Virus record (IMG/VR): IMGVR_UViG_3300029954_000998
Coordinates: 1-41,827 of that record
Direction: 5' to 3' (one strand)
DNA length: 41,827 nt
Source: a virus
Part shown: positions 1,600-37,500 of the stretch, one piece after another
How the letters are laid out: every line of letters starts with the position of its first letter
How positions within the stretch are numbered: the stretch's first letter is position 1
Position numbers and translations under genes: made by a program
The notes under the pieces: model-generated
What the model was told of the DNA's origin: nothing
Seen by the model: the letters and a program-made list of their open reading frames with translations, nothing else
The model's database searches: none

Positions 1600-2709
1600 T
1601 TAACGAGTTGGAGTGACCTTATCACCCTTGCGTTCACGCACATAAGTTTCCGTCATGGCAAGTGTTTTATGTCCAAGTTGACGTTGAGCTGCCCGCATAT
1701 CACCTGCTTGTTCTGCTTTGTCCGTGCCGGCCTTCGCCCGTAAATCGCGGAATTGAAATTGACTCGTATCAATGCCTGTTGATTCGCGGACATCATAAAA
1801 ACGTTGTACTAGCGCACTTTGGCTTAGTGGCCGACCTTTTTCATTCACAATAAGTGCATCGCAAGTTGTCTGGCGGCTCTTCTCAACTTCCCGTTTTCGG
1901 GAAAGAATCCTCGTTAAAACTTCCTCAAGCTCCCCGGTAATTTGGATGCGAAGCTTTTTCGTTGTCTTATTCTGGGCGAGCTCCAAGTACCCCTCCTTTA
2001 TATCCACTTCGCGATATTTGATCGTATCGGCAGGCCGCTGGCCAGTCAGATATGCTAGGTCCATCGCATCACGCGTGGGCTGATCTGCAGCGACATACAC
2101 CTGCTCAAACATTTCATCTTCAACATAAACGTCGCGGCCAGTTTCTGCATTTCCCTTGATGCCAGCGCACGGATTTTGCGCCCTGGTCAGTCCCCAGTTG
2201 CGCGCCATGTTGAAAACGTGGGAAAACAGCGCCTTCTCGCGATTCGCACGAACCAATCCTTCGGGGATTTTCTGGGGCTTGAGACCGCGATCAACGCGGT
2301 TTTTGTTTTTCTCCAAGGCTAACTCCCTGGATTTCTTGATGCGCCAGTCCATGTACTGGCGAATGTGCATCGGCTCGATTTCATCAAGAGGTGCCTCGCC
2401 TAAAAACTCCAGCAGGAAATCAAATTCAATCAGGTTGTCGCGCTGCGTTCTCGCCCCCTTGGTGGGCAACACCTCTTTCATATAGCGCGTTGCTGCATAC
2501 TTGAACGTGATTAGATCGGATAGGCGGTCCGATTTGTCATGCTCAAGTTCGGCCCATTTCGTGACTGCAACAACGTAGTCACTTCCAAGCGGAATTTCTA
2601 CGCGTGGACTTCCACCTGCATCGTAGTAATAATAGGCAATGCCGCTTTTCTGAATCCGACGACGCATGCGTGGTGGCAGATTCAAGTTTTTAGTTGGTCG
2701 ACGTCCCAT
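1600..2709 (-). CDS. int: tyrosine-family phage integrase
   Basis: A 369-residue site-specific recombinase that would integrate the phage at tRNA-Lys. The N-terminal half carries the SAM-like core-binding domain. The catalytic half shows R225 (in LTGQRPAD), a basic strand near K251, RDLR at 321-324 where R324 is the second catalytic arginine, H347 (QLGHK) and the nucleophile Y356 (TETYVR). The first histidine of the usual HxxR motif is arginine here, a variant seen in related phage integrases. It is the last gene of the leftward operon, three bases after the DUF4224 gene, and its stop abuts the 16-bp inverted repeat. Confidence 0.95.
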   Translation of the reverse strand: MGRRPTKNLNLPPRMRRRIQKSGIAYYYYDAGGSPRVEIPLGSDYVVAVTKWAELEHDKSDRLSDLITFKYAATRYMKEVLPTKGARTQRDNLIEFDFLLEFLGEAPLDEIEPMHIRQYMDWRIKKSRELALEKNKNRVDRGLKPQKIPEGLVRANREKALFSHVFNMARNWGLTRAQNPCAGIKGNAETGRDVYVEDEMFEQVYVAADQPTRDAMDLAYLTGQRPADTIKYREVDIKEGYLELAQNKTTKKLRIQITGELEEVLTRILSRKREVEKSRQTTCDALIVNEKGRPLSQSALVQRFYDVRESTGIDTSQFQFRDLRAKAGTDKAEQAGDMRAAQRQLGHKTLAMTETYVRERKGDKVTPTR

Positions 2710-5269: not shown

Positions 5270-6343
5270 TCAGTCAGCCAACTCGGCGCGGCGTTTGGCG
5301 GCCAGGTCGTACAGCTCTTTTTCCTGTGCCTCGTCACCCAGGTAACGCACTTCGTCAATCACAAGATCGAGCACATCGGCATCGGCGCAAGCGGCGATGC
5401 GCTTAACCATTGCATCGAACTGACTTTCATGTGTAGTGGCCGTAGTTGAATTTTGAGATGTGGCATTTTGATTTTTATCTACAGGGACGGCTTCGCGTGC
5501 AGCGTCCATACCAAAATTAGCTGATTCACTCGGTTCATTTTCCAGTGCTGGCGTTTGTCGAAGCGCCGCACCGATTGCCGATTGCGAAGCCATGTCAATG
5601 AACCCAAGTGCTTCGTTGTCCGACGAAATCACCTTTTCCAGTGCATCAGACTTTGGCATTTGCTTGCTACCACGCTTGATGACCGACTTGATTGCCTGTT
5701 GGTCATACCATTTTGTCCATGGAGAGTTTGCGCCATCCGGGGACTTGCTAGCGGCACGCACTTTTTCGATGTCGCGACGCGGCATTACTTCCCGCTTCAC
5801 TTCGCCATTCTTCATTTTTACTACAAGGTAAGCGGCAACGACTGGGCCGGCATCATCTTGCATCGTTGGTTCATGCTCCAACTTGGGATCATCGCCACGG
5901 CGAAAAATAAATTTATCGTTCTGGTACACGGCGGCGGCATCGACCATCGCGACGTCTGGATTTGAATAGAATGTCTTCACGATGCCGCCGACCATTGGCA
6001 GGTATTGCACCATCTTCACCCATTGCTCTTGACCATTTTTCTTCACCTTGGTGTTGTAGATGTTGAGTACGGCCTCGCGACCATCCGGCAACAACCCATC
6101 CTGTGCAGCCTTCATGCAGGATGCGATCAGTGAGCGCCGATCCGCTTCCAATAGATCAGGTGTCGCCAGCACTGAATTGAGAACGACACGGATAAAGCGG
6201 TCAACATTGGTTTCGCTGCCGAGCAATGGCTTGAATTCGCCCTTGCTGGTTTCAAGTTGACGCTTCAATGATTCGTATGGGCTACGCGCTTCTTGTGCAG
6301 TGGCCTGACCGGTGGCTACTTGTTTTAGGGCTTGAGTGCTCAT
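5270..6343 (-). CDS. recT: RecT-family single-strand annealing protein
   Basis: A 357-residue annealing recombinase. The RecT core spans roughly residues 25-240, with the typical stretch RFIRVVLNSVLATPDLLEAD, then QDGLLPDGREAVLNIY and YLPMVGGIVK. The Gln/Asn/Ser-rich linker after ~265 leads to a short helical tail. It would bind the 3' single strands made by the exonuclease encoded immediately upstream and anneal them to complementary DNA. Only three bases separate the two genes, the standard two-component phage arrangement. It is co-transcribed with the DGR genes. Confidence 0.93.
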   Translation of the reverse strand: MSTQALKQVATGQATAQEARSPYESLKRQLETSKGEFKPLLGSETNVDRFIRVVLNSVLATPDLLEADRRSLIASCMKAAQDGLLPDGREAVLNIYNTKVKKNGQEQWVKMVQYLPMVGGIVKTFYSNPDVAMVDAAAVYQNDKFIFRRGDDPKLEHEPTMQDDAGPVVAAYLVVKMKNGEVKREVMPRRDIEKVRAASKSPDGANSPWTKWYDQQAIKSVIKRGSKQMPKSDALEKVISSDNEALGFIDMASQSAIGAALRQTPALENEPSESANFGMDAAREAVPVDKNQNATSQNSTTATTHESQFDAMVKRIAACADADVLDLVIDEVRYLGDEAQEKELYDLAAKRRAELAD

Positions 6344-6346
6344 GAT

Positions 6347-7336
6347 TTACTTGCCTTTCTTCAGTCGCAGAACGCGGGTTGTAGTGGTCTTTGTGAACTT
6401 GGCGGCAATTTCCGGCTCTTTCTCGCGCAGGCCGTCAACATCGATCCGGCGCGTTGCTTGGCCTTTCCATGTTGCGATTTCTTTTCCGCTAAACATGAGA
6501 ATTGCGTGCGGATTGATGAAGTCACCGATCTGGTGCTTAAGCACTTCCTCGGCTTCTTCGAGATCTTTGATCTTGGCCTTGACCTCGGCTAGTTCGCGCA
6601 CCTTGATAGCCACCTCGGGGGTTGCTTCAACCGGGAGTCCGTTATCGTGCGGGAAGAGCGCTTTGACATCGTCAAAGGTTAGTGTGTCAGGAGGCGTGTC
6701 GCCCAACACATGGTCATACCAGAATGCGATTTCTTTCTCACGCATGGCGGCGATAGTCTCGTCATCACGGCGAACCCAATAGATATCCACGTCATCAAAG
6801 CTGCGCAGCGCTGCAACTAGACAGAATTGACGCTGTCCTGGCGCCACCATCAAGCCATGCATGAACTGCGCGGCATATTCAATAGGTACATCTTCGGTGT
6901 TTTCTTCCCCCCATTTTTTGCGCGCAAAGCTGCTGACACTCTTCGCATCAGCATTGACGTGCTCGCCATCCATTGTGACGATTTCGCCGCCAATCTCGAC
7001 TTCGCCAGTTAGTCGCAATTCAAAGTCGATTTCGCATGACATAAATGCGTGATCTGGATCAACATAGCGCTCATTGCAAACGATGATATCCACCTCGATC
7101 CCTTCGTCGCGCAGCTTCTCGATGACCATATCTCGGATGAACGGTTCGAGTTTATGGCCGCGATCAAACATGCGCTGACGCACCGCAGTAATTTCTTCAT
7201 CTGGCGCGCGACCAGTTTTCTGCATCCACAGTTCGATTGGCGTATGCCATGGACTGACACCGAGAATGGCTGCGGCATCGCTGCCTCCAACGAACTTGCT
7301 ACGATCTGGCTTCATTGCTTGTGCTGGCGCATTCAT
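6347..7336 (-). CDS. YqaJ/lambda-exonuclease family recombination nuclease
   Basis: A 329-residue protein. The N-terminal FVGGSDAAAILGVSPWHTP is the YqaJ viral recombinase signature, and MSCEIDFELR with the following VNADAKSV supplies the acidic/Lys catalytic patches (D, E-x-K-like) of the PD-(D/E)XK fold. The C-terminal ~80 residues form a coiled-coil-like helix (VAIKVRELAEVKAKIKDLEE). It should degrade one strand of double-stranded DNA to feed RecT. Its ATG overlaps the stop of the reverse transcriptase as ATGA, so translation is coupled to the DGR. Confidence 0.9.
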   Translation of the reverse strand: MNAPAQAMKPDRSKFVGGSDAAAILGVSPWHTPIELWMQKTGRAPDEEITAVRQRMFDRGHKLEPFIRDMVIEKLRDEGIEVDIIVCNERYVDPDHAFMSCEIDFELRLTGEVEIGGEIVTMDGEHVNADAKSVSSFARKKWGEENTEDVPIEYAAQFMHGLMVAPGQRQFCLVAALRSFDDVDIYWVRRDDETIAAMREKEIAFWYDHVLGDTPPDTLTFDDVKALFPHDNGLPVEATPEVAIKVRELAEVKAKIKDLEEAEEVLKHQIGDFINPHAILMFSGKEIATWKGQATRRIDVDGLREKEPEIAAKFTKTTTTRVLRLKKGK

Positions 7337-8679
7337 TTACTTCCCTTTCTAAAGGTTTTCGTAAGGTCCGACTTAATGGTGTGGCCGCGCCGCATGAGTT
7401 CTTTTGCGAGTAGTGCGCGGTCGTGGTGTCCGTGTGATGCTTGCCGCATCAGGCCAAAATAGCTGTTTGCTGTCTCGAACAAGTCTTCGCCGGCCATGCT
7501 GCGCACTCGCGACAGCGAATCGTTGAATGTGCGGCGGCGTAATGTCCGGCGCCATGGCTTAATCACCTGGCCAACAAAGTCAATCCCGCGCTCAATGGGC
7601 TGCAGGATCGTTTTGGTCGGATTGAGGCGAGCGCCGAGTGCGCCATGCAGATGAACTTCAATTTTTTGCTTGGCGTCGTTCAGCCATGTCGATGATGTAT
7701 GCAACAACAGAAAATCATCGACATAACGGATGTAATGGCGGCAGCGCAGGCGATGCTTGACGAACTGGTCCAGTTCATCGAGATATACGTTCGCAAAGAA
7801 CTGACTTGATAGATTGCCAATAGGCAGACCCAAGTGAGCCCCCTGCTCAGTCAGCCGTTTGTGCATCGGAACGAGCGTCAACTGATCGACATCGCCGCGA
7901 TATTCGAAATTCTGGCGTGGGTCATGGAAAAGGATTGTCTCAGCTAGGCACATCCACCATGGCTCGGTGATGCGACGCGCCAACAAGTCGCGCACAATAT
8001 TCTTGTTGATGCTGACAAAGAAGTTAGCCAGGTCTAGTTTCAGATAGTAAGCAGGCTTGCTCCAATTTTGAGTGATGCTGCGCACCTTAGATTCCAGGCG
8101 CTGGGCTCCGTAGAGCGTCCCACGTCCGGGAATGCACGCGCAACTATCAGCAATGAATCCAGCATAGAAACGAGGTGCAATGTGGTTGTGCAGCAGATGG
8201 TGCACTATCCGATCACGGAAATCTGCTGCCCACACCTCTCTCGCCTTGGGGCGTGTGATGACGAAACACAGCGAGCGGCCTGGCGCATATTCACCGCTCG
8301 CTAGTTCGTCGTAAAGTGAGCGCAAGTTATGCTCAAGATTAATCTCAAAAGCCAGTGCACTAGCGCTGCTCCGCTTTGTGCGCCTGCAATCGAAATAGGC
8401 TTGAACAAGCTCAGTAAATGTAAAGTCAGGTGCGTTCCATTCTGCGGACGGCACGGCCACGCAACGCGTTGTTCTTGTGGTTGTTGTTCTGGTTGCCGTT
8501 GTTGAAGTTCTGATACCAGGCGTAGCCGTACCTATCGTGCTTTCTACGTCGCCAACCCGAATATTCGAATGGGAAACTGCGCCAGACCAGACCCGGACAG
8601 AACCGGCGGTATCTGCGGTGCGCATGTCGGTGGCCTTTTGAGCCAGCGGCACGACCAGATTAAAATTACGCTCAGTCAT
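7333..8679 (-). CDS. DGR reverse transcriptase
   Basis: Reverse transcriptase of a diversity-generating retroelement. It copies TR RNA with errors at adenines. With the start used here it has 448 residues. Motifs are KLDLANFF (214-221), LGLPIGNLSSQ (283-293, the (I/L/V)GxxxSQ hallmark of DGR enzymes) and RYVDDFLL (318-325, catalytic aspartates). PFAM-like RT similarity begins only near residue 85 (FTFTELVQAY). The start at 8679 is favoured because ATGACTGA overlaps the avd stop. However, residues ~51-80 are then encoded by the TR itself in another frame. A GTG start at 8460 or 8454 would give a shorter enzyme more like BPP-1 Brt. A still longer frame up to 8775 lies inside avd and is unlikely. 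Confidence 0.93.
   Translation of the reverse strand: MTERNFNLVVPLAQKATDMRTADTAGSVRVWSGAVSHSNIRVGDVESTIGTATPGIRTSTTATRTTTTRTTRCVAVPSAEWNAPDFTFTELVQAYFDCRRTKRSSASALAFEINLEHNLRSLYDELASGEYAPGRSLCFVITRPKAREVWAADFRDRIVHHLLHNHIAPRFYAGFIADSCACIPGRGTLYGAQRLESKVRSITQNWSKPAYYLKLDLANFFVSINKNIVRDLLARRITEPWWMCLAETILFHDPRQNFEYRGDVDQLTLVPMHKRLTEQGAHLGLPIGNLSSQFFANVYLDELDQFVKHRLRCRHYIRYVDDFLLLHTSSTWLNDAKQKIEVHLHGALGARLNPTKTILQPIERGIDFVGQVIKPWRRTLRRRTFNDSLSRVRSMAGEDLFETANSYFGLMRQASHGHHDRALLAKELMRRGHTIKSDLTKTFRKGSK
8441..8529 (-). repeat. DGR template repeat (TR)
   Basis: An 89-bp non-mutated template. Read on the minus strand it is rich in AAC codons: GYAWYQNFNNGNQNNNHK, then NNALRGRAVRR in the frame matching the targets. 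The 28 bp at its 3' end (8441-8468) are identical in all three VRs and should be the initiation-of-mutagenic-homology region. The remaining 61 bp align with VR2 and VR3 without gaps and with VR1 with one codon inserted. All differences are at template adenines. It sits inside the 5' end of the reverse transcriptase ORF, in a different frame. Confidence 0.95.
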
Positions 8680-9046
8680 GATGGCCTTGGCCTCCATGAA
8701 GCAGGCGATTCGCGGCATTGCGCCACCCAGTAGCCTGTTTTCCGATGCTGGTTGTGAGCTCCGTTGCTTGAGCATAAGCGGCGACCGAAATAAGCCGTTT
8801 ATCTTTTGCCAAACGAATCAACAACTGAGCTACTTCCAAGCGCTCCTGCAACTCCGTGAGATACAGGGCCTTATCTTTTGCCACGTTGGCACGAAATATC
8901 AGCACCGTTAATTCGATGCATTCGGCACTGATCTTGTCGCCAATAGTCCGCTTGAAATCGCGCGGCATATTGCGGGAAAAATTGGTCACGACATCGAGCA
9001 AGTCGTATGTGACCTTATAGATCGGAAGGTTGGTGTGGATGGCCAT
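8672..9046 (-). CDS. avd: Avd accessory protein of the DGR
   Basis: A 124-residue, highly helical, basic protein. It matches the four-helix-bundle Avd/S23-like family: LPIYKVTYDLLDVVT, then NMPRDFKRTIGDKI, then CIELTVLIFRAN and LQERLEVAQLLIRLAKDKRL. In BPP-1, Avd forms a pentamer that binds the RT and the TR RNA and is needed for cDNA synthesis. It lies between the targets and the RT, 19 bases after the VR1 gene, and overlaps the RT start by eight bases. Confidence 0.93.
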   Translation of the reverse strand: MAIHTNLPIYKVTYDLLDVVTNFSRNMPRDFKRTIGDKISAECIELTVLIFRANVAKDKALYLTELQERLEVAQLLIRLAKDKRLISVAAYAQATELTTSIGKQATGWRNAANRLLHGGQGHHD

Positions 9047-9065
9047 ATCTGACTAAATAGATAAA

Positions 9066-9530
9066 TTACTCAATAACTAATCTGCGGACGGCACGGCCAC
9101 GCAACGCGAGGCCCTTGCGGCCGTAGCTGAGCTGGTAGCCGTGGTAGAAGCCCTGAAACCAGGCGCAGCCGTCATTTGTCTTGGAGGGTGTGTTAGACCA
9201 GTAAGCGGCCTCCTTGAATTGTTCATGCATGTACTTATAGAGCAGCGCCTGCTCGACACGATCAGGAAGATCGCCACCTTGCCCCTTGGCCCAAGCCATC
9301 TGTGAGTCCCAGTCGGCACCGTCTTGATCGCCGGGCAACAGGGTCAGGTGATATTTTGTTTTTCCATCTTTGGCGATGACTGCGCATACCCACTCCTCTC
9401 CAGCCAAGAGGGATGGCATCGCAACATTGATGGGAAAGACTTCTTCAAAAGCCTTCTGCGCTTCGAAAGAGGAAATCATCTGAGACAGCTTGGTTTGCTC
9501 TGCCTTGATTGATTCAAGCGTGATAGTCAT
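9066..9530 (-). CDS. DGR target protein 1 (DUF1566-like, carries VR1)
   Basis: A 154-residue protein, one of three paralogous DGR targets. The N-terminal ~45 residues are a predicted coiled coil (SIKAEQTKLSQMISSFE) unlike the others. The shared domain follows: HLTLLPGDQDGADW, WAKGQGGDLPDRVEQALLY, EAAYWS, then the variable C-terminus GCAWFQGFYHGYQLSYGRKG and LALRGRAVRRL. This fits the DUF1566/C-type-lectin-like fold whose exposed face tolerates variation. The ATG at 9530 is preferred to an in-frame GTG at 9539 because GAGGTG lies seven bases upstream. No signal peptide or membrane segment is seen. Ligand unknown. Confidence 0.9.
   Translation of the reverse strand: MTITLESIKAEQTKLSQMISSFEAQKAFEEVFPINVAMPSLLAGEEWVCAVIAKDGKTKYHLTLLPGDQDGADWDSQMAWAKGQGGDLPDRVEQALLYKYMHEQFKEAAYWSNTPSKTNDGCAWFQGFYHGYQLSYGRKGLALRGRAVRRLVIE
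9081..9172 (-). repeat. DGR variable repeat VR1
   Basis: It aligns with TR over the invariant 28-bp end and 61 further bases plus one inserted codon. There are 16 substitutions, all at TR adenines (coding sense). It ends with the target gene's coding sequence. The 20 bp just outside (9061-9080) are also identical to the flank of VR3 but absent from VR2 and TR. Confidence 0.95.
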
Positions 9531-9556
9531 TGCGGACACCTCGAATTGATAAATGA

Positions 9557-9916
9557 TTAAATTGGCAATCTGCGGACGGCACGGCCACGCAACGCGTAGC
9601 TCTTGTGGGTGCTGCCCTGGCTGCCGTAGAGGAAGTCCTGAAACCAGGCGCAGCCGTCATCGCTGTGATGCGACTCATTGCTCCAGTACAAATCTTTCTT
9701 GAACAGATCGCGGTGATTTGCCCACAACATGGCCTGCTCGACGCGGTCGGGGAGGTCGCCGCCGATAGACTTGGCCCATTCCAATTGCTTGGCATGTGTC
9801 GCATCGTCGTTATCGCCGGGCAGTAAGATGAGGTGATACAACTCGCCTTTGGCGTCACCTCTGACGCCGATATAGATTTGCCCTTCTTCAAGCGGCGGGA
9901 TTTGAATCTGGTTCAT
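9557..9916 (-). CDS. DGR target protein 2 (DUF1566-like, carries VR2)
   Basis: A 119-residue target, essentially only the DUF1566-like domain: GQIYIGVRGDAKGELYHLIL, LPGDNDDATHAKQLEWA, GGDLPDRVEQAML, KDLYWSNESHHSDD, then the variable tail GCAWFQDFLYGSQGSTHKSY ending in the constant RGRAVRRLPI. The ATG at 9916 has AAGGAG nine bases upstream; an in-frame TTG at 9922 would be too close to it. The stop lies 26 bases before the VR1 gene. No secretion signal or membrane segment, so the protein is probably cytoplasmic or packaged. Ligand unknown. Confidence 0.9.
   Translation of the reverse strand: MNQIQIPPLEEGQIYIGVRGDAKGELYHLILLPGDNDDATHAKQLEWAKSIGGDLPDRVEQAMLWANHRDLFKKDLYWSNESHHSDDGCAWFQDFLYGSQGSTHKSYALRGRAVRRLPI
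9569..9657 (-). repeat. DGR variable repeat VR2
   Basis: Aligned without gaps to the 89-bp TR. It has 13 substitutions and every one falls on a template adenine (coding sense). The next base outside the repeat (9658) is the first non-adenine mismatch and marks the boundary. The invariant 28-bp end is intact. Confidence 0.95.
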
Positions 9917-9946
9917 GTTCAATTTCTCCTTGTGGTTATGGCTGAA

Positions 9947-10141
9947 CTACTTTGATGGAAGTGAAACCGGCGCCGTCATCTCTTCCGGCGTGCGGTACTT
10001 CATGAAAAGTTTTTTGTTCTGTGCGATCAGGGCGGCCTGTTGCTTAGCTGCATCTTGCTCATCGCGCACCGGTGCGGTGATCAGCACCAGACCGATGAGC
10101 AACAGCCCGAGGATTGCGCCGAGGGGATAGGCGGTTTTCAT
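9947..10141 (-). CDS. small single-pass membrane protein
   Basis: A 64-residue protein starting MKTAYPLGAILGLLL. One hydrophobic segment (about residues 7-24, LGAILGLLLIGLVLITAPV) is followed by a polar tail (DEQDAAKQQAALIAQNKK). The ATG overlaps the stop of the preceding gene as ATGA. A longer frame upstream would overlap that gene and is not used. Function unknown; a membrane-targeted early phage protein inside the target-gene cluster. Confidence 0.7.
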   Translation of the reverse strand: MKTAYPLGAILGLLLIGLVLITAPVRDEQDAAKQQAALIAQNKKLFMKYRTPEEMTAPVSLPSK

Positions 10142-10404
10142 TTGGCGCAGCGCTCCTCGAGCATGGCATCTGCGTACTCGTAGGCCCATTCAGCCATGCG
10201 CGGTACAGCTTTCAATCCGCAATTGAGGCCGTCTTTTTTTTCCTTGCTGATAAGGGCCGTCAGCGCCTGCGCAGCAAAGTAATCGCGCAGACTCATACCG
10301 TCGCTTGGCTGGATATCAAACCGTGCAACGCCTTCGCTATCGATACCGGTCATCTCTGCATTCAGGCCTGGAAAGGCTGAGCCGCCGTCGGATGTTGTGC
10401 TCAT
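10138..10404 (-). CDS. small phage protein with AYxYADAMLEER tail
   Basis: An 88-residue protein beginning MSTTSDGGSAFPG. The blocks SDGMSLRDYFAAQAL and YEYADAMLEER recur in small uncharacterised phage ORFs. The start has GGAG six bases upstream and overlaps the preceding stop as ATGA; the long N-terminal extension of the open frame is ignored. Function unknown. Confidence 0.8.
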   Translation of the reverse strand: MSTTSDGGSAFPGLNAEMTGIDSEGVARFDIQPSDGMSLRDYFAAQALTALISKEKKDGLNCGLKAVPRMAEWAYEYADAMLEERCAK

Positions 10405-10577
10405 GTCGAGCTCCGCAAGCAGGAATTGCTGACGCTTGGCATTGGGTAGTCGTGGCGCAGCTTCAAAATCATGGCGCCCAGCACCAGCACGGCGATGGCG
10501 ATGTAAGCCAGCGCGCGACGGATGCGACCAGGGCGATAGGTCGGGCGCGGGCGCAAGTATGTGGCGGGGCGGCTCAT
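10401..10577 (-). CDS. small membrane protein, 58 residues
   Basis: Starts MSRPATYLRPRPTYRPGRIR: a basic proline/arginine-rich N-terminus, then one membrane span (ALAYIAIAVLVLGAMIL) and a short tail. By the positive-inside rule the N-terminus should stay in the cytoplasm. Both ends overlap neighbours as ATGA, which fixes the start. Function unknown. Confidence 0.7.
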   Translation of the reverse strand: MSRPATYLRPRPTYRPGRIRRALAYIAIAVLVLGAMILKLRHDYPMPSVSNSCLRSST

Positions 10578-10918
10578 GCTCCCACCCCAAGCCATTCAGG
10601 GCGTTGCATGGTTTGGGCGTCGGCACGATCACTCTCTGCGCGGGCCGCCGCATCAGGCAAACGACGGTCGCAGAATCCGGACAAATCGATTAACAACTTA
10701 TGATTCAGCAATGGGTCAAGGCTGACTTTGGTGCCGGACAAGCATGCATCGACAACGTTATAACCATCCTCAAGAATCTCGCCGTATAAGTCCAACTTCA
10801 AACCATCTGCGTCATATGCGCACAGATAGATCAGTGTCGGATCGACCTGCGGCTGGCCAGCTAACGCTGCAATAACAGCCATGTCGAGAATATTGTCCTG
10901 TTGCAGGGTGCGTTGCAT
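10574..10918 (-). CDS. hypothetical early phage protein
   Basis: A 114-residue protein of unknown family (MQRTLQQDNILDMAVIAAL). The middle is acidic (CAYDADGLKLDLYGEILEDG). The C-terminal part has two cysteines (DACLSGTK, GFCDRR). It follows the VR3 gene by 32 bases and overlaps the next gene as ATGA. No membrane segment or catalytic motif is recognised. Confidence 0.65.
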   Translation of the reverse strand: MQRTLQQDNILDMAVIAALAGQPQVDPTLIYLCAYDADGLKLDLYGEILEDGYNVVDACLSGTKVSLDPLLNHKLLIDLSGFCDRRLPDAAARAESDRADAQTMQRPEWLGVGA

Positions 10919-10950
10919 GCTCGTCTCCGATTGATTATTAAATAGATAAA

Positions 10951-11430
10951 TTACTCAATAACTAATCTGCGGACGGCACGGCCACGCAACGCGTAGCCCT
11001 TGAGGGTGCTGTCCTGGTAGCCGTCGTCGAAGCTCTGATACCAGGCGGAGCCGTCATTCGAGTGGCTTTCGCTCGACCAGTAAGCGGCCTCTTTAAAGTG
11101 CTTCTTGGCGTTCGCGTACAGCAGGGATTGTTCGGCGCGAGTGGGCAGATCACCGCCAGCTTTTGCAGCCCACTTCATCTGCGTTTTCCAGTCAGCATCG
11201 TCGTTGTCGCCTGGAAGCAGGATCACGTGATGCGATGGGCGACCATCTTCATGCAAGATGATGCCGGCGTAGACTTCGCCATCATTGATAGCTGGAACAG
11301 TTATCGAGGAAGATGACGCAGGCTTGACGCCCAAGTGCTTTTCCAGCCAAGCATTGAACAGCTCTTGTGTGGCGACGGAAAGCTGCGCGCTTCCGATTTG
11401 CAGCGTTACTTGTTGGTCGTTGGGTTGCAT
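10951..11430 (-). CDS. DGR target protein 3 (DUF1566-like, carries VR3)
   Basis: A 159-residue target and the first gene of the early-left operon. Residues 1-50 are specific to this copy (MQPNDQQVTLQIGSAQ...). The shared domain follows: GEVYAGIILHEDGRPSHHVI, LLPGDNDDADW, WAAKAGGDLPTRAEQSLLYA, EAAYWSSESHSNDG, then the variable SAWYQSFDDGYQDSTLKGY and constant LRGRAVRRLVIE. GGAG lies six bases before the ATG. It lies ~70 bases downstream of the predicted pL promoter and so should be made early and strongly after induction. No signal peptide. Confidence 0.9.
   Translation of the reverse strand: MQPNDQQVTLQIGSAQLSVATQELFNAWLEKHLGVKPASSSSITVPAINDGEVYAGIILHEDGRPSHHVILLPGDNDDADWKTQMKWAAKAGGDLPTRAEQSLLYANAKKHFKEAAYWSSESHSNDGSAWYQSFDDGYQDSTLKGYALRGRAVRRLVIE
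10966..11054 (-). repeat. DGR variable repeat VR3
   Basis: Gap-free alignment to TR with 12 substitutions, all at template adenines. Together with the downstream flank, a 48-bp block (10946-10993) is identical to 9061-9108 at VR1. This suggests that one target gene arose by duplication of the other or by gene conversion. Confidence 0.95.
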
Positions 11431-11477
11431 TTCTCGCTCCAGTGGTTGATTGGAGCGATTTTTTGCTCCTTTAAAAA

Positions 11478-11536
11478 TGCGTTCGCCGCATCGTTAAAGT
11501 GCATATTACGCATAATAAATTAATGCGTCAACCGCA
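11478..11536 (-). promoter_or_regulatory. early-left promoter pL with three operator sites
   Basis: Promoter on the minus strand: -35 TTGACG (11526-11531), 17-bp spacer, -10 TAATAT (11503-11508). Three sites of the form TGCG-N5-CGCA lie at 11478-11490, 11500-11512 (TGCA in one arm) and 11524-11536, about 22-24 bp apart (two helical turns). They cover the start region, the -10 and the -35. The same motif recurs at the repressor/Cro promoters. The operon from 11430 to 1600, including the DGR, should therefore be silenced by the prophage repressor. Confidence 0.8.
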
Positions 11537-11565
11537 TTTTTTGAATATTTACGATTATCTGGGCG

Positions 11566-12009: not shown

Positions 12010-12308
12010 TTCAGCGCCCTGATATACCGTTCGCAACCGCCCAGGTTGCCATCGGCAGAATGTTTTCTGATGATGTCATGCTCATCAACCTGCAATGTAA
12101 GAGTGCACTGATATTCGTTGCCGCTGACTACTGACCATCGGATCAGATGCAGTCCGGCTACCGTTTGCTCGGTAGTCGGCAATCCTAATTTATCGATTGC
12201 CACTGATAAGGGTTGACCATGTAGCGCCGTCAAACGATCTTGAAACTGCCCTGGTGTTACGCAACCCTCAAGCGCCAGTACTACGAAAAATCCGATCAAT
12301 CTTTTCAT
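12006..12308 (-). CDS. small lipoprotein made with the repressor
   Basis: A 100-residue protein. The N-terminus MKRLIGFFVVLALEGC is a lipoprotein signal with the acylated cysteine at residue 16; Glu at the -2 position is atypical. The mature part has two more cysteines (EYQCTL, GGCERY) that could form a disulphide, and a SmpA/BamE-like feel (RLTALHGQPLSVAIDKLGLP, then conserved W), often a short periplasmic beta domain. It has its own Shine-Dalgarno (GGAG) and ATGA coupling to the repressor gene. Surface exclusion of related phages is a reasonable guess, not shown. Confidence 0.75.
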   Translation of the reverse strand: MKRLIGFFVVLALEGCVTPGQFQDRLTALHGQPLSVAIDKLGLPTTEQTVAGLHLIRWSVVSGNEYQCTLTLQVDEHDIIRKHSADGNLGGCERYIRALK

Positions 12309-12949
12309 TGTTTTCTCCGGTATTTTTTCCGATGTTCAACCATCACACCAATGATAAACAGCTCTTGCATGTCGCTGCGCATGGTCGGGTAATCTGGATT
12401 CAATGGCACAAGCTCGAAAATCATATTACCGCTGGCATCCATACCGCGCGGGCGGTATTTCTTAAAGGTAGCTTCTTCATCACCATTCTTCGCCACAACA
12501 AAATCACCAGGATTAGGCGAGAGTTCAGGATCAATGATTACCCGATCACCTTGCCTGAACTCAGGCAGCATTGATTCTCCTTCAATCTCCAATGCGAATG
12601 CAAATTTGGAGACTGTGGCGTCAGAGTAGATCACATCAAAGCCGGCGCCAGGCGGGTAAGGGTCTTTGATTTCTGTCAACAGGCCAGCTTGAATAGCAGA
12701 AATAACCGGTATCGCCTGCATATCCGGAAGAGCTGCAGACACGTTTAAATCAAATTTTTCCAAAAAGAAATCAGCGACCTCGACGCCAAGCGCATCGGCC
12801 AACGCATGAAGTTTTTCTTCCGAGAGCCATTGCGTGCCGCGCTCTACCCGCGACAAATTGCCGCCAGTTAAGTCTGCCGCGTGCTCTACCTCGGCGAGAG
12901 TCATTTTCTTCGCCAGCCTAATTGCTCTGATTTTTTCGCCCGTTTTCAT
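12305..12949 (-). CDS. CI-like repressor (HTH + S24 peptidase)
   Basis: A 214-residue lysogeny repressor. The N-terminal XRE helix-turn-helix is MTLAEVEHAADLTGGNLSRV and following. The C-terminal LexA/S24 domain shows the cleavage-type Ala-Gly (IQAG), the catalytic serine in EGESM and lysine in EEATFKKY. It should self-cleave when RecA is activated, inducing the prophage. The start at MKTGEKI is chosen because the -10 of pRM lies seven bases upstream; with no Shine-Dalgarno, the mRNA would be nearly leaderless, as for lambda cI. A longer frame to 13045 would include the operator region and is rejected. Confidence 0.92.
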   Translation of the reverse strand: MKTGEKIRAIRLAKKMTLAEVEHAADLTGGNLSRVERGTQWLSEEKLHALADALGVEVADFFLEKFDLNVSAALPDMQAIPVISAIQAGLLTEIKDPYPPGAGFDVIYSDATVSKFAFALEIEGESMLPEFRQGDRVIIDPELSPNPGDFVVAKNGDEEATFKKYRPRGMDASGNMIFELVPLNPDYPTMRSDMQELFIIGVMVEHRKKYRRKQ

Positions 12950-12956
12950 AGGAACT

Positions 12957-13032
12957 ATTGTGTTATTGAAATGCGTTAGACGCAAAGCGCCTTGCGCATT
13001 CTTGATACTTGCATTAAAGTGCGTATTACGCA
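12957..13032. promoter_or_regulatory. divergent pRM/pR control region with operators
   Basis: pRM (minus): -35 TTGCGT 12980-12985, 17-bp spacer, -10 CACAAT 12957-12962. pR (plus): -35 TTGATA 13002-13007, 16-bp spacer, -10 TATTAC 13024-13029. Operator sites TGCG-N5-CGCA lie at 12972-12984 and 13020-13032, plus a one-mismatch site (AGCG) at 12986-12998. The block TTAAAGTGC-rTATTACGCAT is almost identical at pL (11494-11513) and here (13014-13033). Confidence 0.75.
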
Positions 13033-13054
13033 TTATTAACTCCATGAGCCGATT

Positions 13055-32271: not shown

Positions 32272-34599
32272 ATGCCTATTCTGCCAACACTCGAAACTTC
32301 GCAAAGCGTCTTCAGTACTGGCGCGCTTGGCCCGCAACAGGTTCAAGCGTCTGCGGCAGATTTTGGTGGCCTGACTGCGCAGGCTGGCCAACAGATTGGG
32401 CAAGCCGCACAAAGTGTTAGCGGTGACGTCAGTCAGATCGGCCTGCGGCAGAAAGCAATTCAAGATGAAACTGATGTAAATAGTACTTACTATAAGCAAA
32501 CTTTCCCGGCGATCACTGATGCTACGCAAAAGTATCTAAATTTGCAGGGCAAGGATGCTGTTGACGCGTTACCAGCATATCAGGCGCAACTTGAGCAAAT
32601 TCGCTCAGACCAGCGCGATACTCTGGCGAATCCGCAGCAACAGCAAATGTTTGACAACATTGCCCGCAGGACGATTGCGTTTAACGTAGATGGCGCCGCA
32701 CGCCATGCGACGCAGCAGAACATCGTATATCAGGATCAGACCTCGGCCGGCATGGTAGCGGCGGCCGGCGACCTGGCCGTACAGCATTGGAATGACCCGG
32801 TTGGATTTAATGTCGGCTTGCAATCTGGCGTCAGCGAAATCATGACGCATGCTCAGTATCGCGGCATGCCCATTGAATACGCGCAGAAACAGGTACAAGA
32901 CTTCACTAGCAAGACCTACACGCAGCGCCTGACGGAGATGGCAAACACCGATCCGGTGGGTGCCTATGACCTGTTCAAGAATGGCGAAACCTATACCGAT
33001 AAGCTTGGGCAGCATCATGTCGACATTCAGTCTCAGATCGATCCTGCCGTATTGCCAACGCTTGAATCACATTTGATGCAAGGTGCTAAGACGGTGCAGG
33101 CGAGCATCATTTCTCACAATGCCATTTATGGGGGCACAAGCACCGTGTCTGATCCATCGCATCTGTACGATGCCACACAGAACACGCCGCCATTGAGCAA
33201 CGTAGTTAATAAGATAGAAAGTAACGGCGCGCCAGATTCTGCCAATATCCACGGCCCGATGACAAGCAGCGGCGAGCGTGCGCAGGGCAACATGCAGGTA
33301 ATGCCGGCCACGTCGCTTAATCCGGGCTATGGCGTCACACCCGCCAAGAATAACAGCCCGGAGGAAGTCGCCCGCGTTGGTCGTGACTATATCGGCGCAA
33401 TGACCGCGAAATATCAGAATCCGGCCTTGGCGCTGGCCGCATACGACGCTGGCCCCGGTATGGTCGATGACTGGATCAACGGCACGAATAAGACCGGTAA
33501 GAATCCGAATCTAACGCAATTGCCGGATCCGCGTACCGGTGCGATATCCAATGCTGACTTCGCAGCGAAGATTCCTTTTAGCGAGACTCGGGCATACGTC
33601 GGCAAGGGCTTAGCCATGTCGTCGCAGCCAAGTGATAAGCCACAGGCATTGCCGACCACCGCAGAACTGAAAACGCAATTGCCGGACATTGCTGCAAATG
33701 CGCGTGCGGCGGCACTGAAGATGTACCCGAATGACCCGACGTTTGCAGACTCTGTTTTTCAGCGCACGCTGAACCAGGGTAATACCGTCCTGCAAGGCGT
33801 CACAGCTCAGGAAAACGGCGCGCGCGACACACTTACCAGAATGATGATCGGCAGCAAGCCAGATGGTAGCGACCGAATCACATCAATGGATCAACTCCTG
33901 TCGACGCCGGCAGGAAAACAGGCATGGGCAAACGCCACTCCCGAAGTGCAGGCAGGAATACAGAGCAGTCTCGCTAAACCTCAGAACGTCCCTATGACGC
34001 AGGAAGGATTCAACCTGTATTACCAGATGCGGGGCCAGGCAGCGAATGACCCCAATAAATTTGTGCAGCAGGATCTGAGCGGCCTGTACGGGAAGATGCC
34101 GCTGGCGCAGATTTTGGAACTGACGAACGTGCAGGCCGGTCTGGCTAAGGGCGCACAGGGCCAGGTAGGAAAGTCCTTGGACTGGTCAAAAACAAAGGGT
34201 GACGTCGATGACATGCTCAAGCCGCTTGGGCTTGGAAATGCAGCGAAGTCAGGCACGGACCAGTCTACCCAGACAGAGACTTTTTACGGTAAGTTGCAGG
34301 ATGCCATCGAAAGCTACCATGACCAAAACCAGAAATATCCAGACACCACGGCGACGCGCAAGATTGCGGCCGGCTTGCTAACACAAGGCACGCAAGGCCC
34401 GGATCACTGGTATTCGACGGGCAACAAAACAGCCGCCTTCCAATCGCCGGACTTGAGTAAATTTAAGGCTACGGTACCGGATGATCAAAGGCCGTTATTG
34501 CAGCAGCAATTCCAGAACGTCTATAAGCGACAGCCAACGGATGATGAGTTGAATGGACTGTACACGCAGTTTCAGCTTTCCAAGAGGAGCGGTAAATAA
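32272..34599 (+). CDS. internal virion protein with lytic transglycosylase domain
   Basis: 775 residues. An SLT-like domain lies around 308-410: VNKIESNGAP with the likely catalytic E316, GNMQVMPAT, and LALAAYDAGPGMVDDW. It would open the peptidoglycan during genome ejection. Both flanks are long helical regions rich in Gln and Ala. The stop overlaps the next start as TAATG. Confidence 0.85.
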   Translation: MPILPTLETSQSVFSTGALGPQQVQASAADFGGLTAQAGQQIGQAAQSVSGDVSQIGLRQKAIQDETDVNSTYYKQTFPAITDATQKYLNLQGKDAVDALPAYQAQLEQIRSDQRDTLANPQQQQMFDNIARRTIAFNVDGAARHATQQNIVYQDQTSAGMVAAAGDLAVQHWNDPVGFNVGLQSGVSEIMTHAQYRGMPIEYAQKQVQDFTSKTYTQRLTEMANTDPVGAYDLFKNGETYTDKLGQHHVDIQSQIDPAVLPTLESHLMQGAKTVQASIISHNAIYGGTSTVSDPSHLYDATQNTPPLSNVVNKIESNGAPDSANIHGPMTSSGERAQGNMQVMPATSLNPGYGVTPAKNNSPEEVARVGRDYIGAMTAKYQNPALALAAYDAGPGMVDDWINGTNKTGKNPNLTQLPDPRTGAISNADFAAKIPFSETRAYVGKGLAMSSQPSDKPQALPTTAELKTQLPDIAANARAAALKMYPNDPTFADSVFQRTLNQGNTVLQGVTAQENGARDTLTRMMIGSKPDGSDRITSMDQLLSTPAGKQAWANATPEVQAGIQSSLAKPQNVPMTQEGFNLYYQMRGQAANDPNKFVQQDLSGLYGKMPLAQILELTNVQAGLAKGAQGQVGKSLDWSKTKGDVDDMLKPLGLGNAAKSGTDQSTQTETFYGKLQDAIESYHDQNQKYPDTTATRKIAAGLLTQGTQGPDHWYSTGNKTAAFQSPDLSKFKATVPDDQRPLLQQQFQNVYKRQPTDDELNGLYTQFQLSKRSGK

Positions 34600-37500
34600 T
34601 GCCCGGTGATTTCGAATCATTCTTGCGTAGCCAGCCATCACCAGACGCTGCGGTACCAGGGCAGACCGCACCGGTATCGCCAGCACCTGGCGTTGATCCA
34701 ACACCTGCACAGCCAGTGGCGCCTTTCGAAGCATTTTTGCGCGCCAACAAGAGTCAGCAGGATGCGCAGCAGCTCCAGCAGGCGCAGGGCATCGCCGTTG
34801 CTAACAGCGGTAGCAGTGCGGCTGCTGCCGGACAGGCTGCCGAGGTAGGGCGTCAGATCGGTGCGCCGCAAGCCGCCGTCGAGGCTGACTTGCCGCGTTA
34901 CCAGGCGCAGGCATTGGCACAGAAGAATTCGCAGACGTTGGCCGCTAGCCCGAAGCTGGCAAGTTGGGTTGCTGCCAATCCTGACAGCGCGCGCGTGGCA
35001 CAGAACGATTTCGACGATATGTCGCAGATCGAGCCACTGTTTTCCAATGACGCGAAAAAGAGCATCGAGCCAGTGCTGATGGGATTGGCCAAGGGTGCGG
35101 TCGGTGGCTTCAATGATGCATCGCTGGCAGTCAATCGACTGATCGGCTATGGCGCACAGGGCCTGGATGCTGTTTCTGGTACAAATGCATCCGATTGGTG
35201 GTATCAGCACATGATCGCCCCGGCGCTGCAAAATAAGGACGCGACCGCGATACCAGCAAATGCGCCTTTTGGCGTTAAGGCCGCTGGCGTGGGAGGCAAC
35301 TTGCTGAGCATGATCGCCACCATTGCGGCAACTGGTGGTGCTGGCGCTGCGGCTGAAGCTGGCGAGGCTGCGACAGTCGGACAGGCCGCACTACAGACCG
35401 CAAAGACCGGCAGTCGGGCAATGGCATTCCCAGCGCTGACATCGGCAGTCAACACCGGCCAGGATGTTTACAACCAGACCGGTGACAGCAAGCAAGCGAT
35501 TCGCGCCGCACAAATGGCCTACGCCACTACTACCCTAGGCGGCATCGTTCCACTGGGCGTGCCAGGCAGCATTGGCGCACGCCTGGCTAGCGGCGCTGCC
35601 TCTGGTGCCATAACCGGTGAGGTATCGCGCCAGGCAATGAATCTGGTTATGCCGCAGCAACAAGGTTTTGATCCAGAGCAGACCATTCTTTCTGGACTGA
35701 GCGGCATGATGTTGGGTGGCCTCATGGGGCATGGCCCGCTGCATGAAGGCGTACAGCAGGCATTTAGTGATGGGCTGGCAGCAGAGACTGCAGAGCATGG
35801 CGGTCAAGCCATCGAGCAGTTGAGCAAGATTGCGCAAGAATCAAATCTGCGCACGCATGACCCGCAAGCCTTCAAGGAGTTTGTCAGATCGCAGACAGAA
35901 GACGGCAACATGCCCAACGTCTACGTAGACGGCAAGATATTCGAAGATGCCTTACATCAGTCTTCAGTTGACCCGCAGCAGATACCTGGGCTGCAAGACA
36001 GGCTTGCCGAGGCCACGCTGACCGGTGGTGACGTGCAGATTCCTGTTGAAGATTACGCAACCCACATTGCCGGTACCAATCTTGAGAATGCCATTCTGCC
36101 GAATCTGAAGGCAGAAGAAGGTGGCATGACCTATGCCGAGGGACAGAAATTCTATCAAGACGCTGCCGGCGAAATGCAGGCGCGCGCGCAAGATATCGTC
36201 AGCAAGCAGCAGGGTGTTGAGGCGCAGCAGGACGACGTCAAGGCCATTGGCGACAAGCTGATGGCCCAAATGCAGGCAACCGGACGCTTCCCTGATGACG
36301 TGGCGCGTGCCAGCATCGCGCCGGTGACAGAGTTCTATCGGACCATGGCCGAGCGCTATGGTATGAAGCCGGGCGAGTTGTACGAAAAATATCCGTTATC
36401 GATTGCAAAAGAGCGGACAGGCAATGCTGATAAGCTCGATCAGGCAACAGGATGGGATTCGGTTGAAACTGATGAACCGGGCTCTGTAGCCGCAGACAAT
36501 CCAAAGGGAGTTTATAGCCCTTCACAACGTACTATTGGCCTTTTGCAAAATGCAGACTTGAGCACGTTTCTGCATGAATCTGGGCATTTTTTCCTGCATA
36601 CCATGGGCGATCTTGCTGGGCGTGAAGATGCTCCGCAGCAAGCCAAGGATGATATGCATACTGCCATTCAATGGATGGGCGGGAAAGATTTGGCGGATTG
36701 GAATTCCCGCAGTATTAGCCAGCAGCGTGATATGCATGAGAAATGGGCGCGTGGTTATGAAACGTATTTGATGGAAGGCAAGGCACCGACGCAAGGCATG
36801 CAAGCACTGTTTTCTCGTTTTCGTTCTTGGTTGATGAACATCTATAAATCATTTAATGAATTGCATGTTCAACTAACCCCAGAGGTGCGCGGTGTGATGG
36901 ACCGTATGCTAGCCAGTGATGAGGCAATCCGGCAGGCCGAACAATCACGCGGCTATTTTCCTCTGGACCTGTCCAAGACTGGCGCCACCGATAAGCAGCA
37001 GGCAGACTATGCAGCGCTTGGCCAGCAGGCCACGCAGGATGCCGTCGGCACATTGCAAGCGCGTAGCGTGCGCGACATGCAGTACACATCGAATGCCAAG
37101 AGCAGGGCGTTGAAAGCATTGCAACGGGAGGCTGCTGGTCTGCGCCGAGGTATTCAAGATGAGGTGACCAAGGAAGTCATGGCGCAGCCTGTCGAGCGCG
37201 CCCGCGAATTCATGAAGTCCGGCAAGGTGCTGGATGCCGAGGGCAGGGAAGCGCCCGACATGCGCCCGTTGGGTGCTGGCGATGGCAAGATCAATATTGC
37301 TGACCTGAAAGAGATGTACCCGGAGGGTAATTTAAACCGCCCCGATCTGGATGCATTGCGCGGCATGACCTCCAAAACAGGCATGCATCCCGACATGATT
37401 GCCGAGATGTTCGGCCTCGGCAGCGGTGACGAGCTGGTACGAAGTCTGGCCGACGGCGAGAAGCCGAAAGAACAGATTGCCAGGCTGACCGATCAGCGCA

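Follow-up and report, generated by a model that had tools for sequence, protein, structure and literature searches.

Diversity-generating retroelements (DGRs) of phages are commonly interpreted as devices that switch tail tropism, and a hairpin 3' of the variable repeat (VR) is generally regarded as a conserved requirement. Among viral DGR targets with an annotation, tail proteins are the majority (PMC8144416), and DGRs of the BPP-1 type have a GC-rich hairpin or cruciform with a GRNA loop 3' of the VR (PMC3240598). In one study, 28.6% of the DGRs carry multiple VRs (PMC6642488). For the DGR of Burkholderia phage Magia the authors suggested a change of host range, and the part of their paper available to us carries no discussion of the early setting, the RNA and the repeats that we describe below (PMC7883833).

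Here we analyze a DGR in a stretch of 41,827 nucleotides (the window; positions 1 to 41,827 of IMG/VR virus record IMGVR_UViG_3300029954_000998), in which all genes and repeats whose coordinates are given below are on the minus strand. Multi-target DGRs and template repeats (TRs) that overlap the reverse transcriptase (RT) ORF are already known kinds. What is unusual here is the early-operon location, the non-tail single-domain lectin targets, the placement of both an RT-15 RNA and the TR in the RT frame, and the octamer arrays. With good confidence, we explain the whole as a very probably functional early-operon DGR with three targets and sites that octamers would mark; that its products bind host components is a more tentative step.

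A complete three-target cassette

The cassette makes up a complete DGR with three targets, carried by a temperate podophage of the BPP-1/epsilon15-like type; at the window ends we found no attachment-site repeats of at least 13 bp. The TR (8441..8529) is 89 nt long with 28 A on the coding (minus) strand, and the three VRs are VR-a (10966..11054), VR-b (9569..9657) and VR-c (9081..9172), with IMH ends at 10966-10993, 9569-9596 and 9081-9108. A sequence-only reading of this DNA had already given the coordinates of these four repeats, which proved exact on recheck, and comparing the bases on the coding strand reproduced its counts of 12 (VR-a), 13 (VR-b) and 16 (VR-c) substitutions, all at template A. 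The chance of 12 changes falling only on the 28 A of 89 positions is 1.3e-7 for VR-a, and for the 13 changes of VR-b it is 2.7e-8. The 28-bp end described as invariant is identical in the TR and all three VRs, and the VR patterns differ independently, as expected if the copies were mutagenized separately. The statement that all other bases match holds for substitutions, since no VR has one at a non-A position, but it passes over a 3-bp insertion: VR-c is 92 bp rather than 89, and can be aligned to the TR only with 3 bp inserted in the (AAC)3 run of the template, after which every one of its 16 changes is at a template A. Besides this codon insertion, that reading did not mention the position in an early operon, the RT-15 RNA, the octamer arrays or the non-structural nature of the targets.

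The RT gene (7333..8625) has its RT domain from about 8430 and an ORF open to 8775; its start is probably the ATG at 8625-8623, upstream of the TR. The protein carries the GNLSSQ and YVDD motifs that had marked it as a DGR-type RT, matches Pfam RVT_1 (8e-13) and is homologous to BPP-1 Brt. The accessory variability determinant, avd (8672..9046; Pfam bAvd, 4.6e-15), is upstream in 148/150 relatives as well. An RT with its catalytic motif, an A-only TR/VR pair, Avd, and a C-terminal VR in a target of C-type-lectin fold are all present, and RT, Avd, TR and IMH are intact, which bears out the earlier description of the DGR as complete. Judged from its sequence, it is very probably a functional DGR of the avd type.

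Abutting the TR on its upstream side we detected the Rfam RT-15 RNA (RF03018; 8528..8710, 165 bits against a cutoff of 82, E 5.7e-40), covering the full model (positions 1-192) and ending at the TR. It is full-length and ends at the TR in 16/16 relatives tested. Both the RNA and the TR are inside the RT reading frame, and the RNA is probably a coding leader of the DGR template. We found no open-access paper on RT-15 RNA. A TR inside the RT frame was considered as a new feature and rejected, as it is already described in DiGReF group 3. In five relatives that were first scored as having no VRs, an insert parts the TR from the RT and the VRs are present.

Comparison of related genomes, which had been proposed as a check of activity, shows VRs that diverge nearly only at template A while the TR stays constant. 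Across 221 TR/VR pairs of the lineage, 44% of template A are changed compared with 23/14,234 other bases, a figure that is biased low because the scan allows at most one non-A change per 40 nt. Four pairs of relatives (L145/L147, L125/L130, L106/L110 and L050/L057) have identical TRs and RTs that are 6-9% diverged, with 9-18 differing positions in the VRs, nearly all of them template A. Between L011 and L010, a single base differs in 4.7 kb, and it is in a VR, at a position where the template has A. As far as such comparisons reach, natural DGR activity is well supported for the lineage; for the window record itself the claim of activity gains less, since L005, a 4.4-kb fragment and the one near-identical record, has the same VRs. 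Those identical VRs would fit an inactive, decayed DGR whose VRs are fossils of past mutagenesis, but we regard this as very improbable given the intact RT, Avd, TR and IMH, the lack of any non-A change in the three VRs, the open targets, and the relatives with recent A-only change and invariant TR.

Predicted early genes and their lectin-fold products

The three targets are indeed open, as had been stated: T1 (10951..11430, 159 aa), T2 (9557..9916, 119 aa counted from ATG) and T3 (9066..9530, 154 aa counted from ATG), the last adjoining avd. Having three targets was considered as a surprise and rejected, as two to four are usual among about 150 relatives; in the 75 relatives with enough upstream sequence, we counted two targets in 43, three in 24 and four in 2.

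T1 is the promoter-proximal gene behind a predicted pL-like promoter (TTGACG-N17-TAATAT, 11503..11531, a consensus match only), which is flanked by three operator-like sites, also consensus matches to ATGCGN5CGCAT (11477..11537; exact at 11477-11491 and 11523-11537, two mismatches at 11499-11513). Three more such sites, with one mismatch each, begin at 12971, 12985 and 13019 (12971..13033), between the rightward genes and the gene for a CI-type repressor with HTH and S24 peptidase of the cleavable type (12305..12949; ORF listed to 13045, likely start 12949). At the other side of the cassette, the RT stop overlaps by 4 bp the gene for a YqaJ-like exonuclease (6347..7336), followed in the same putative operon by that for a RecT annealing protein (5270..6343), and a tyrosine integrase gene (1600..2709) is at the downstream end of the leftward operon. 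The cassette appears to belong to an early operon of the pL type under CI control, with the repressor gene on one side and the integrase gene on the other. This operon seems to be CI-repressed in the lysogen, so a growing lysogen, one of the conditions suggested earlier for an activity test, is probably the wrong one. Adjacency of RT, exonuclease and RecT as a general DGR-recombinase partnership was rejected, since the window and one Herbaspirillum relative are the only cases with these genes immediately downstream; a recognized exonuclease or SSAP is anywhere near the DGR in 15/64 relatives, with few query families searched.

The early setting is shared across the lineage, although the relatives have common ancestry and the counts are not independent. 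Of the 64 relatives with both flanks available, 57 have a same-strand CI upstream, a same-strand integrase downstream, or both. The PHROG neighbors of their DGRs include integrases, methyltransferases, RecE/Erf and repressors; none of the top 25 families is a tail or head family. The same setting is found in the myophage Magia and the siphophages Haboob and Cruim01, so that it spans podo-, myo- and siphophages. Among control phages of other RT lineages, the DGR is beside tail, baseplate or virion genes in 9/10; the DGR neighbors in control phage Bise have no annotation. This test reads gene position, and a virion protein encoded among early genes stays compatible with it.

The targets are, by sequence, single-domain C-type-lectin proteins without clear export signals. 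T1 scores 22.1 bits against Pfam Lcl_C (DUF1566), below the gathering score of 34.9, 54/63 relatives match it at E<0.01, and across the lineage the DGR targets are of one family in 202/213. Among solved structures, the closest fold is that of the Legionella Lcl C-terminal domain (8q4e, E 3.5e-5); Lcl is a surface adhesin. In the PHROG search, 62/63 targets match a PHROG of unknown function and 0/63 a tail PHROG, and the target proteins have no fiber, shaft or attachment domain. A crude hydropathy rule applied to 232 targets found 16 TM-like and 6 signal-like segments, and a lipobox in none. A tail receptor-binding target among tail genes, as in BPP-1, is not what we see.

The targets are predicted to be among the first genes switched on and are apparently not tail components, so what the phage diversifies probably acts in or on the host cell. 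We tentatively suggest that the target proteins serve host takeover or counter-defense by binding a variety of host components within the cell. A broader suggestion, and a more doubtful one, is that a DGR lineage is devoted to early non-virion proteins, CI-controlled hypervariable intracellular binders of lectin fold, likely directed against host defenses, whose sites are recognized via 8-bp repeats instead of a hairpin. If only gene position were unusual, the lectins could be adsorbed to or built into the virion as decorations or receptor-binding adaptors and change host range as in BPP-1; the C-type-lectin fold shared with Mtd, the proposal made for Magia and the predominance of tail proteins among annotated targets would agree with this. 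We consider it unlikely given early-operon targets in phages of three tail types, the lack of tail PHROG matches and of attachment domains, and the 2-4 target copies per phage. Because the Lcl domain is from a surface adhesin, an extracellular role can still be entertained: diversified surface or periplasmic lectins made by the prophage might keep out superinfecting phages or change how the lysogen adheres, and superinfection exclusion is known among the early or moron functions of phages. The apparent CI repression in the lysogen, the missing lipobox and the few signal- or membrane-like segments make such lysogenic conversion improbable.

Octamer arrays and a proposed mechanism

Just 3' of each VR in the window are tandem 8-bp T-rich repeats: GTTATTGA GTAATTTA TCTATTTA after VR-a (10939..10962) and again after VR-c (9054..9077), and CCAATTTA ATCATTTA TCAATTCG after VR-b (9542..9565). 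Such arrays follow 277/311 VRs of the lineage, compared with 3-10% in four controls. The array was rejected as a universal DGR feature, the lag-8 signal being absent in the BPP-1 lineage (0.206 against 0.242 shuffled); it is weak in VP58.5 and distant relatives (0.363 against 0.269) and strong in one phage, Lagaffe (0.65). No BPP-1-type hairpin or stem-loop follows any of the window's three VRs, and a hairpin with any loop of 3-5 nt follows 84/311 VRs of relatives. An array could instead be a multi-frame stop-codon block that terminates frameshifted targets and has no part in homing: the 8-bp period moves stops between frames, all three frames are stopped in 37% of arrays against 7% of shuffles, and VRs of some relatives have +/-1 shifts. 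However, only 367/862 octamers contain a stop and a TTCA variant keeps the period without one, so we rejected this as the main cause and think it has little chance of being the explanation.

Under our preferred reading, infection or induction would open the leftward promoter, and one transcript of the putative operon would carry T1...T2-T3-avd-(RT-15 RNA-TR-RT)-exo-RecT...int. By analogy with BPP-1, RT and Avd would reverse-transcribe the TR RNA, making errors at A, and the resulting cDNA would take the place of the 3' portion of one or another of the three paralogous targets via the identical IMH end; the A-only change that results is visible in the sequence. The array of about three octamers would mark the target sites, perhaps as a recognition or unwinding element. 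The products would be small single-domain lectin-fold proteins that are made early, present a variable face and are apparently not incorporated into the tail.

If this is true, 2-4 soluble lectin-fold proteins made early are diversified in a large lineage that spans three tail types, and targeted hypermutation reaches into the conflict between phage and host inside the cell. The way in which cDNA locates its target without the BPP-1 hairpin becomes a testable question, with the octamer array as a concrete element to mutate and with Magia, Haboob and Cruim01 as cultured phages of the same DGR lineage.

Comparison with described systems

The DGR of Bordetella phage BPP-1 (mtd-avd-TR-brt) shares with ours the order target-avd-TR-RT, adenine-only change, an IMH end and a C-type-lectin target, and the podophage virions are related (portal 46% identical). 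In contrast, the window RT is only 29.5% identical to that of BPP-1, which has one tail-protein target next to tail genes where the window has three early-operon targets, and a GAAA-loop hairpin after its VR where the window has octamer arrays and no such hairpin. Magia (MT701587) has an RT of the same lineage (67%), avd and lectin targets between CI and integrase, but it is a myophage; its authors listed two targets (PMC7883833), and we found three VRs. In Stenotrophomonas SKA14, a multi-VR DGR likewise serves several DUF1566 targets (PMC6642488). The TR and the 5' end of the RT ORF overlap in DiGReF group 3 DGRs (PMC3521204), as we also see in VP58.5, ACA1 and ARM81mr, whereas in the window the RT-15 RNA that precedes the TR is in frame too. 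Rfam RT-15 (RF03018) is entered as an sRNA gene, but in the window and in 16 relatives its full-length match runs up to the TR, and there it is a leader of the DGR template and probably coding.

A complete DGR with its template probably in the RT leader

The 41,827-bp window, an IMG/VR virus record, carries its diversity-generating retroelement (DGR) on the minus strand, with the template repeat (TR, 8441-8529) and three variable repeats (VRs) lying where the sequence-only reading had placed them. That reading assigned every substitution to a template adenine, and on the coding strand this holds for the VRs at 10966-11054 (12 substitutions, hypergeometric 1.3e-7) and 9569-9657 (13 substitutions, 2.7e-8), given 28 A in 89 template bases. 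The VR at 9081-9172 exceeds the TR by 3 bp, and its 16 changes are all at A, with zero elsewhere, once the extra codon is placed in the (AAC)3 run; slippage by multiples of three at AAC repeats has already been discussed for DGRs (PMC12875486). The invariant 28-bp end (IMH) is identical across all copies. Given the TR/VR pattern, an RT with GNLSSQ and YVDD, an avd that matches bAvd, and three open target frames, the complete DGR claimed for the window is real.

Using the window RT, we collected relatives from 80 viral loci, 80 bacterial-genome loci, and several annotated phages (n=150 after duplicates were removed), and 148 of the 150 have avd. The RTs of phages Magia, QDWS, SC_8, Cruim01, Haboob, phPA-G, and LPPA56 share 60-67% identity with the lineage RT, against only 29.5% for that of BPP-1, the textbook Bordetella phage. 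In the 75 relatives for which 9 kb or more of upstream sequence is available, the number of targets is two in 43, three in 24, and four in 2, so three targets is normal for the lineage; several apparent zero-target relatives are loci with an insert separating TR from RT.

A match to the Rfam RT-15 RNA (RF03018; 165 bits, E 5.7e-40) spans 8710-8528 and stops at the TR, and this RNA was found in 16 of 16 relatives tested. The RT frame is open across the whole TR and 120 nt upstream in 107 of 139 loci (0 and 9 for the other frames). In 105 of 135, a conserved ATG motif keeps the RT phase, at distances varying from 186 to 258 nt, and in 114 of 140 the interval from TR to RT contains no start codon. 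Because of these three features, translation of the TR within the RT leader is very probable. DGRs whose TR overlaps the RT ORF have already been described as a class (PMC3521204). Five loci (L048, L058, L061, L123, and L141) have a ~1 kb insert between TR and RT, containing a methyltransferase in L058, and retain the TR/VR pattern; adjacency of TR and RT is therefore not required.

A probable early operon and its targets

The leftward gene order is CI repressor (HTH and S24 peptidase), T1 (10951-11430), small ORFs, T2 (9557-9916), T3 (9066-9530), avd, RT-15/TR, RT, YqaJ exonuclease, RecT, and, further on, integrase, where T1 to T3 are the target genes. Six ATGCGN5CGCAT sites (at most one mismatch) occur in the window, a total not above chance; the evidence is that five fall into two clusters. 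The cluster at 11477-11537, which gains a third site if two mismatches are allowed, flanks a predicted promoter-like TTGACG-N17-TAATAT (11531-11503) pointing into T1; the cluster at 12971-13033 separates CI from the rightward genes. Because these operator-like clusters resemble lambda oL and oR, the DGR would be silent in a lysogen and turned on at infection or induction.

CI upstream and/or integrase downstream, on the same strand, was found in 57 of 64 relatives with both flanks. Neighbouring proteins include integrases, methyltransferases, RecE/Erf, ParB-like proteins, and repressors, and there are no head or tail families among the 25 commonest neighbour families. The early setting is common to myophage Magia, QDWS (which has baseplate genes), and siphophages Cruim01 and Haboob. 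Ten control phages of other RT lineages have one target each, and nine of them carry the DGR within or next to genes for tail, baseplate, or virion proteins; in Bise the flanking genes lack annotation. We consider the DGR machine and its early placement in the window well supported. VRs 7-10 kb from the TR, one of them on the opposite strand, are among L073:1034-1143 (minus strand), L102:529-625, L103:327-423, and L168:10751-10860, so a single TR serves scattered early genes.

Beyond the integrase, the left edge (1-942) has a cupin/JmjC-domain gene and may be flanking bacterial DNA; the window ends were searched for att-like terminal repeats, and none of 13 bp or more was found. A giant late ORF of 1918 aa with an LPD22 domain (34599-40355) adjoins T7 gp14-like internal virion genes.

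The targets are one family, since 202 of 213 from relatives match T1; Lcl_C is matched by 54 and PHROG 4245 (function unannotated) by 62 of 63 relatives' targets. Their median length is 160 aa. The T1 structure model (pLDDT 94.6) has a C-type-lectin fold, with the Legionella Lcl C-terminal domain as best solved match (8q4e, E 3.5e-5). The absence of a lipobox, the scarcity of segments that a simple rule scores as signal- or membrane-like, the fold, and the early location argue for soluble, non-virion binding proteins. Our preferred guess, from location and design only, is that they would be host-takeover or counter-defence binders, a function we infer.

Activity and mutation pattern

The DGR had been called apparently active, with related strains proposed as a check. 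In four pairs of relatives whose RTs are 6-9% different, the TRs are identical where aligned, yet 9-18 VR positions differ, almost every one of them a template A (31/32 in the pair L145/L147). L011 and L010 differ at one base in 4.7 kb, a template-A position within a VR. The sole near-identical record to the window, L005, is an identical fragment. By these sequence comparisons activity is well supported for the lineage, and we infer it for the window phage itself. In L056 the TR (7880-7985) differs from that of L055 at 13 positions, all of them template A, and its VRs nearly equal the new TR; mutagenised cDNA seems to have replaced this template, at the cost of many A.

Judged against the TRs of 121 relatives, template A before G was changed in 7 of 713 cases, versus 46-63% before C, T, or A, and was also spared outside Gln/Lys/Glu codons (2/41 vs 47/131, p=5e-5). 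Either intrinsic RT fidelity or selection may account for this; the BPP-1 lineage, unlike that of the window, does not spare such positions (11/22 changed). VRs L106:9233-9338, L121:9199-9301, and L050:6741-6836 differ in length from the TR by 1 or 2 nt, and the L106 target has a visible frameshift after its VR.

Octamer arrays after the VRs

A hairpin of the BPP-1 type follows none of the three window VRs, and only 84 of 311 lineage VRs have one. In its place are about three tandem 8-bp units, roughly NNATTYAN, beginning no more than a few bases from the IMH end, with an identical starting offset for all three window arrays. At least two phased units follow 277 of 311 lineage VRs. Background rates are 3% downstream of 1,400 other ORFs, 5% both downstream of avd and in shuffles, and 10% downstream of TRs. 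Three or more phased units are present in most arrays, and lag-8 identity after VRs is 0.50 vs 0.29. Stop codons were considered as an explanation and rejected as the main cause. Read most simply, the array would be a target-site element specific to this lineage, either unwinding DNA for the cDNA or serving as a binding site for Avd-RT or a host factor. In a limited search of the open literature we found no description of such an array.

In other DGR lineages, different 7-8-bp direct repeats, e.g. GGNAATCT, occupy the interval from IMH to hairpin, after the VR of phage Lagaffe (L178) and in several VP58.5-like loci. Short direct repeats after VRs may be more widespread among DGRs than has been recognised. 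The octamer signal itself is weaker in other DGR lineages than in that of the window and absent from that of BPP-1. Efficient homing in BPP-1 depends on a GC-rich hairpin behind the VR, and such a hairpin has been put forward as a conserved DGR requirement (PMC3240598).
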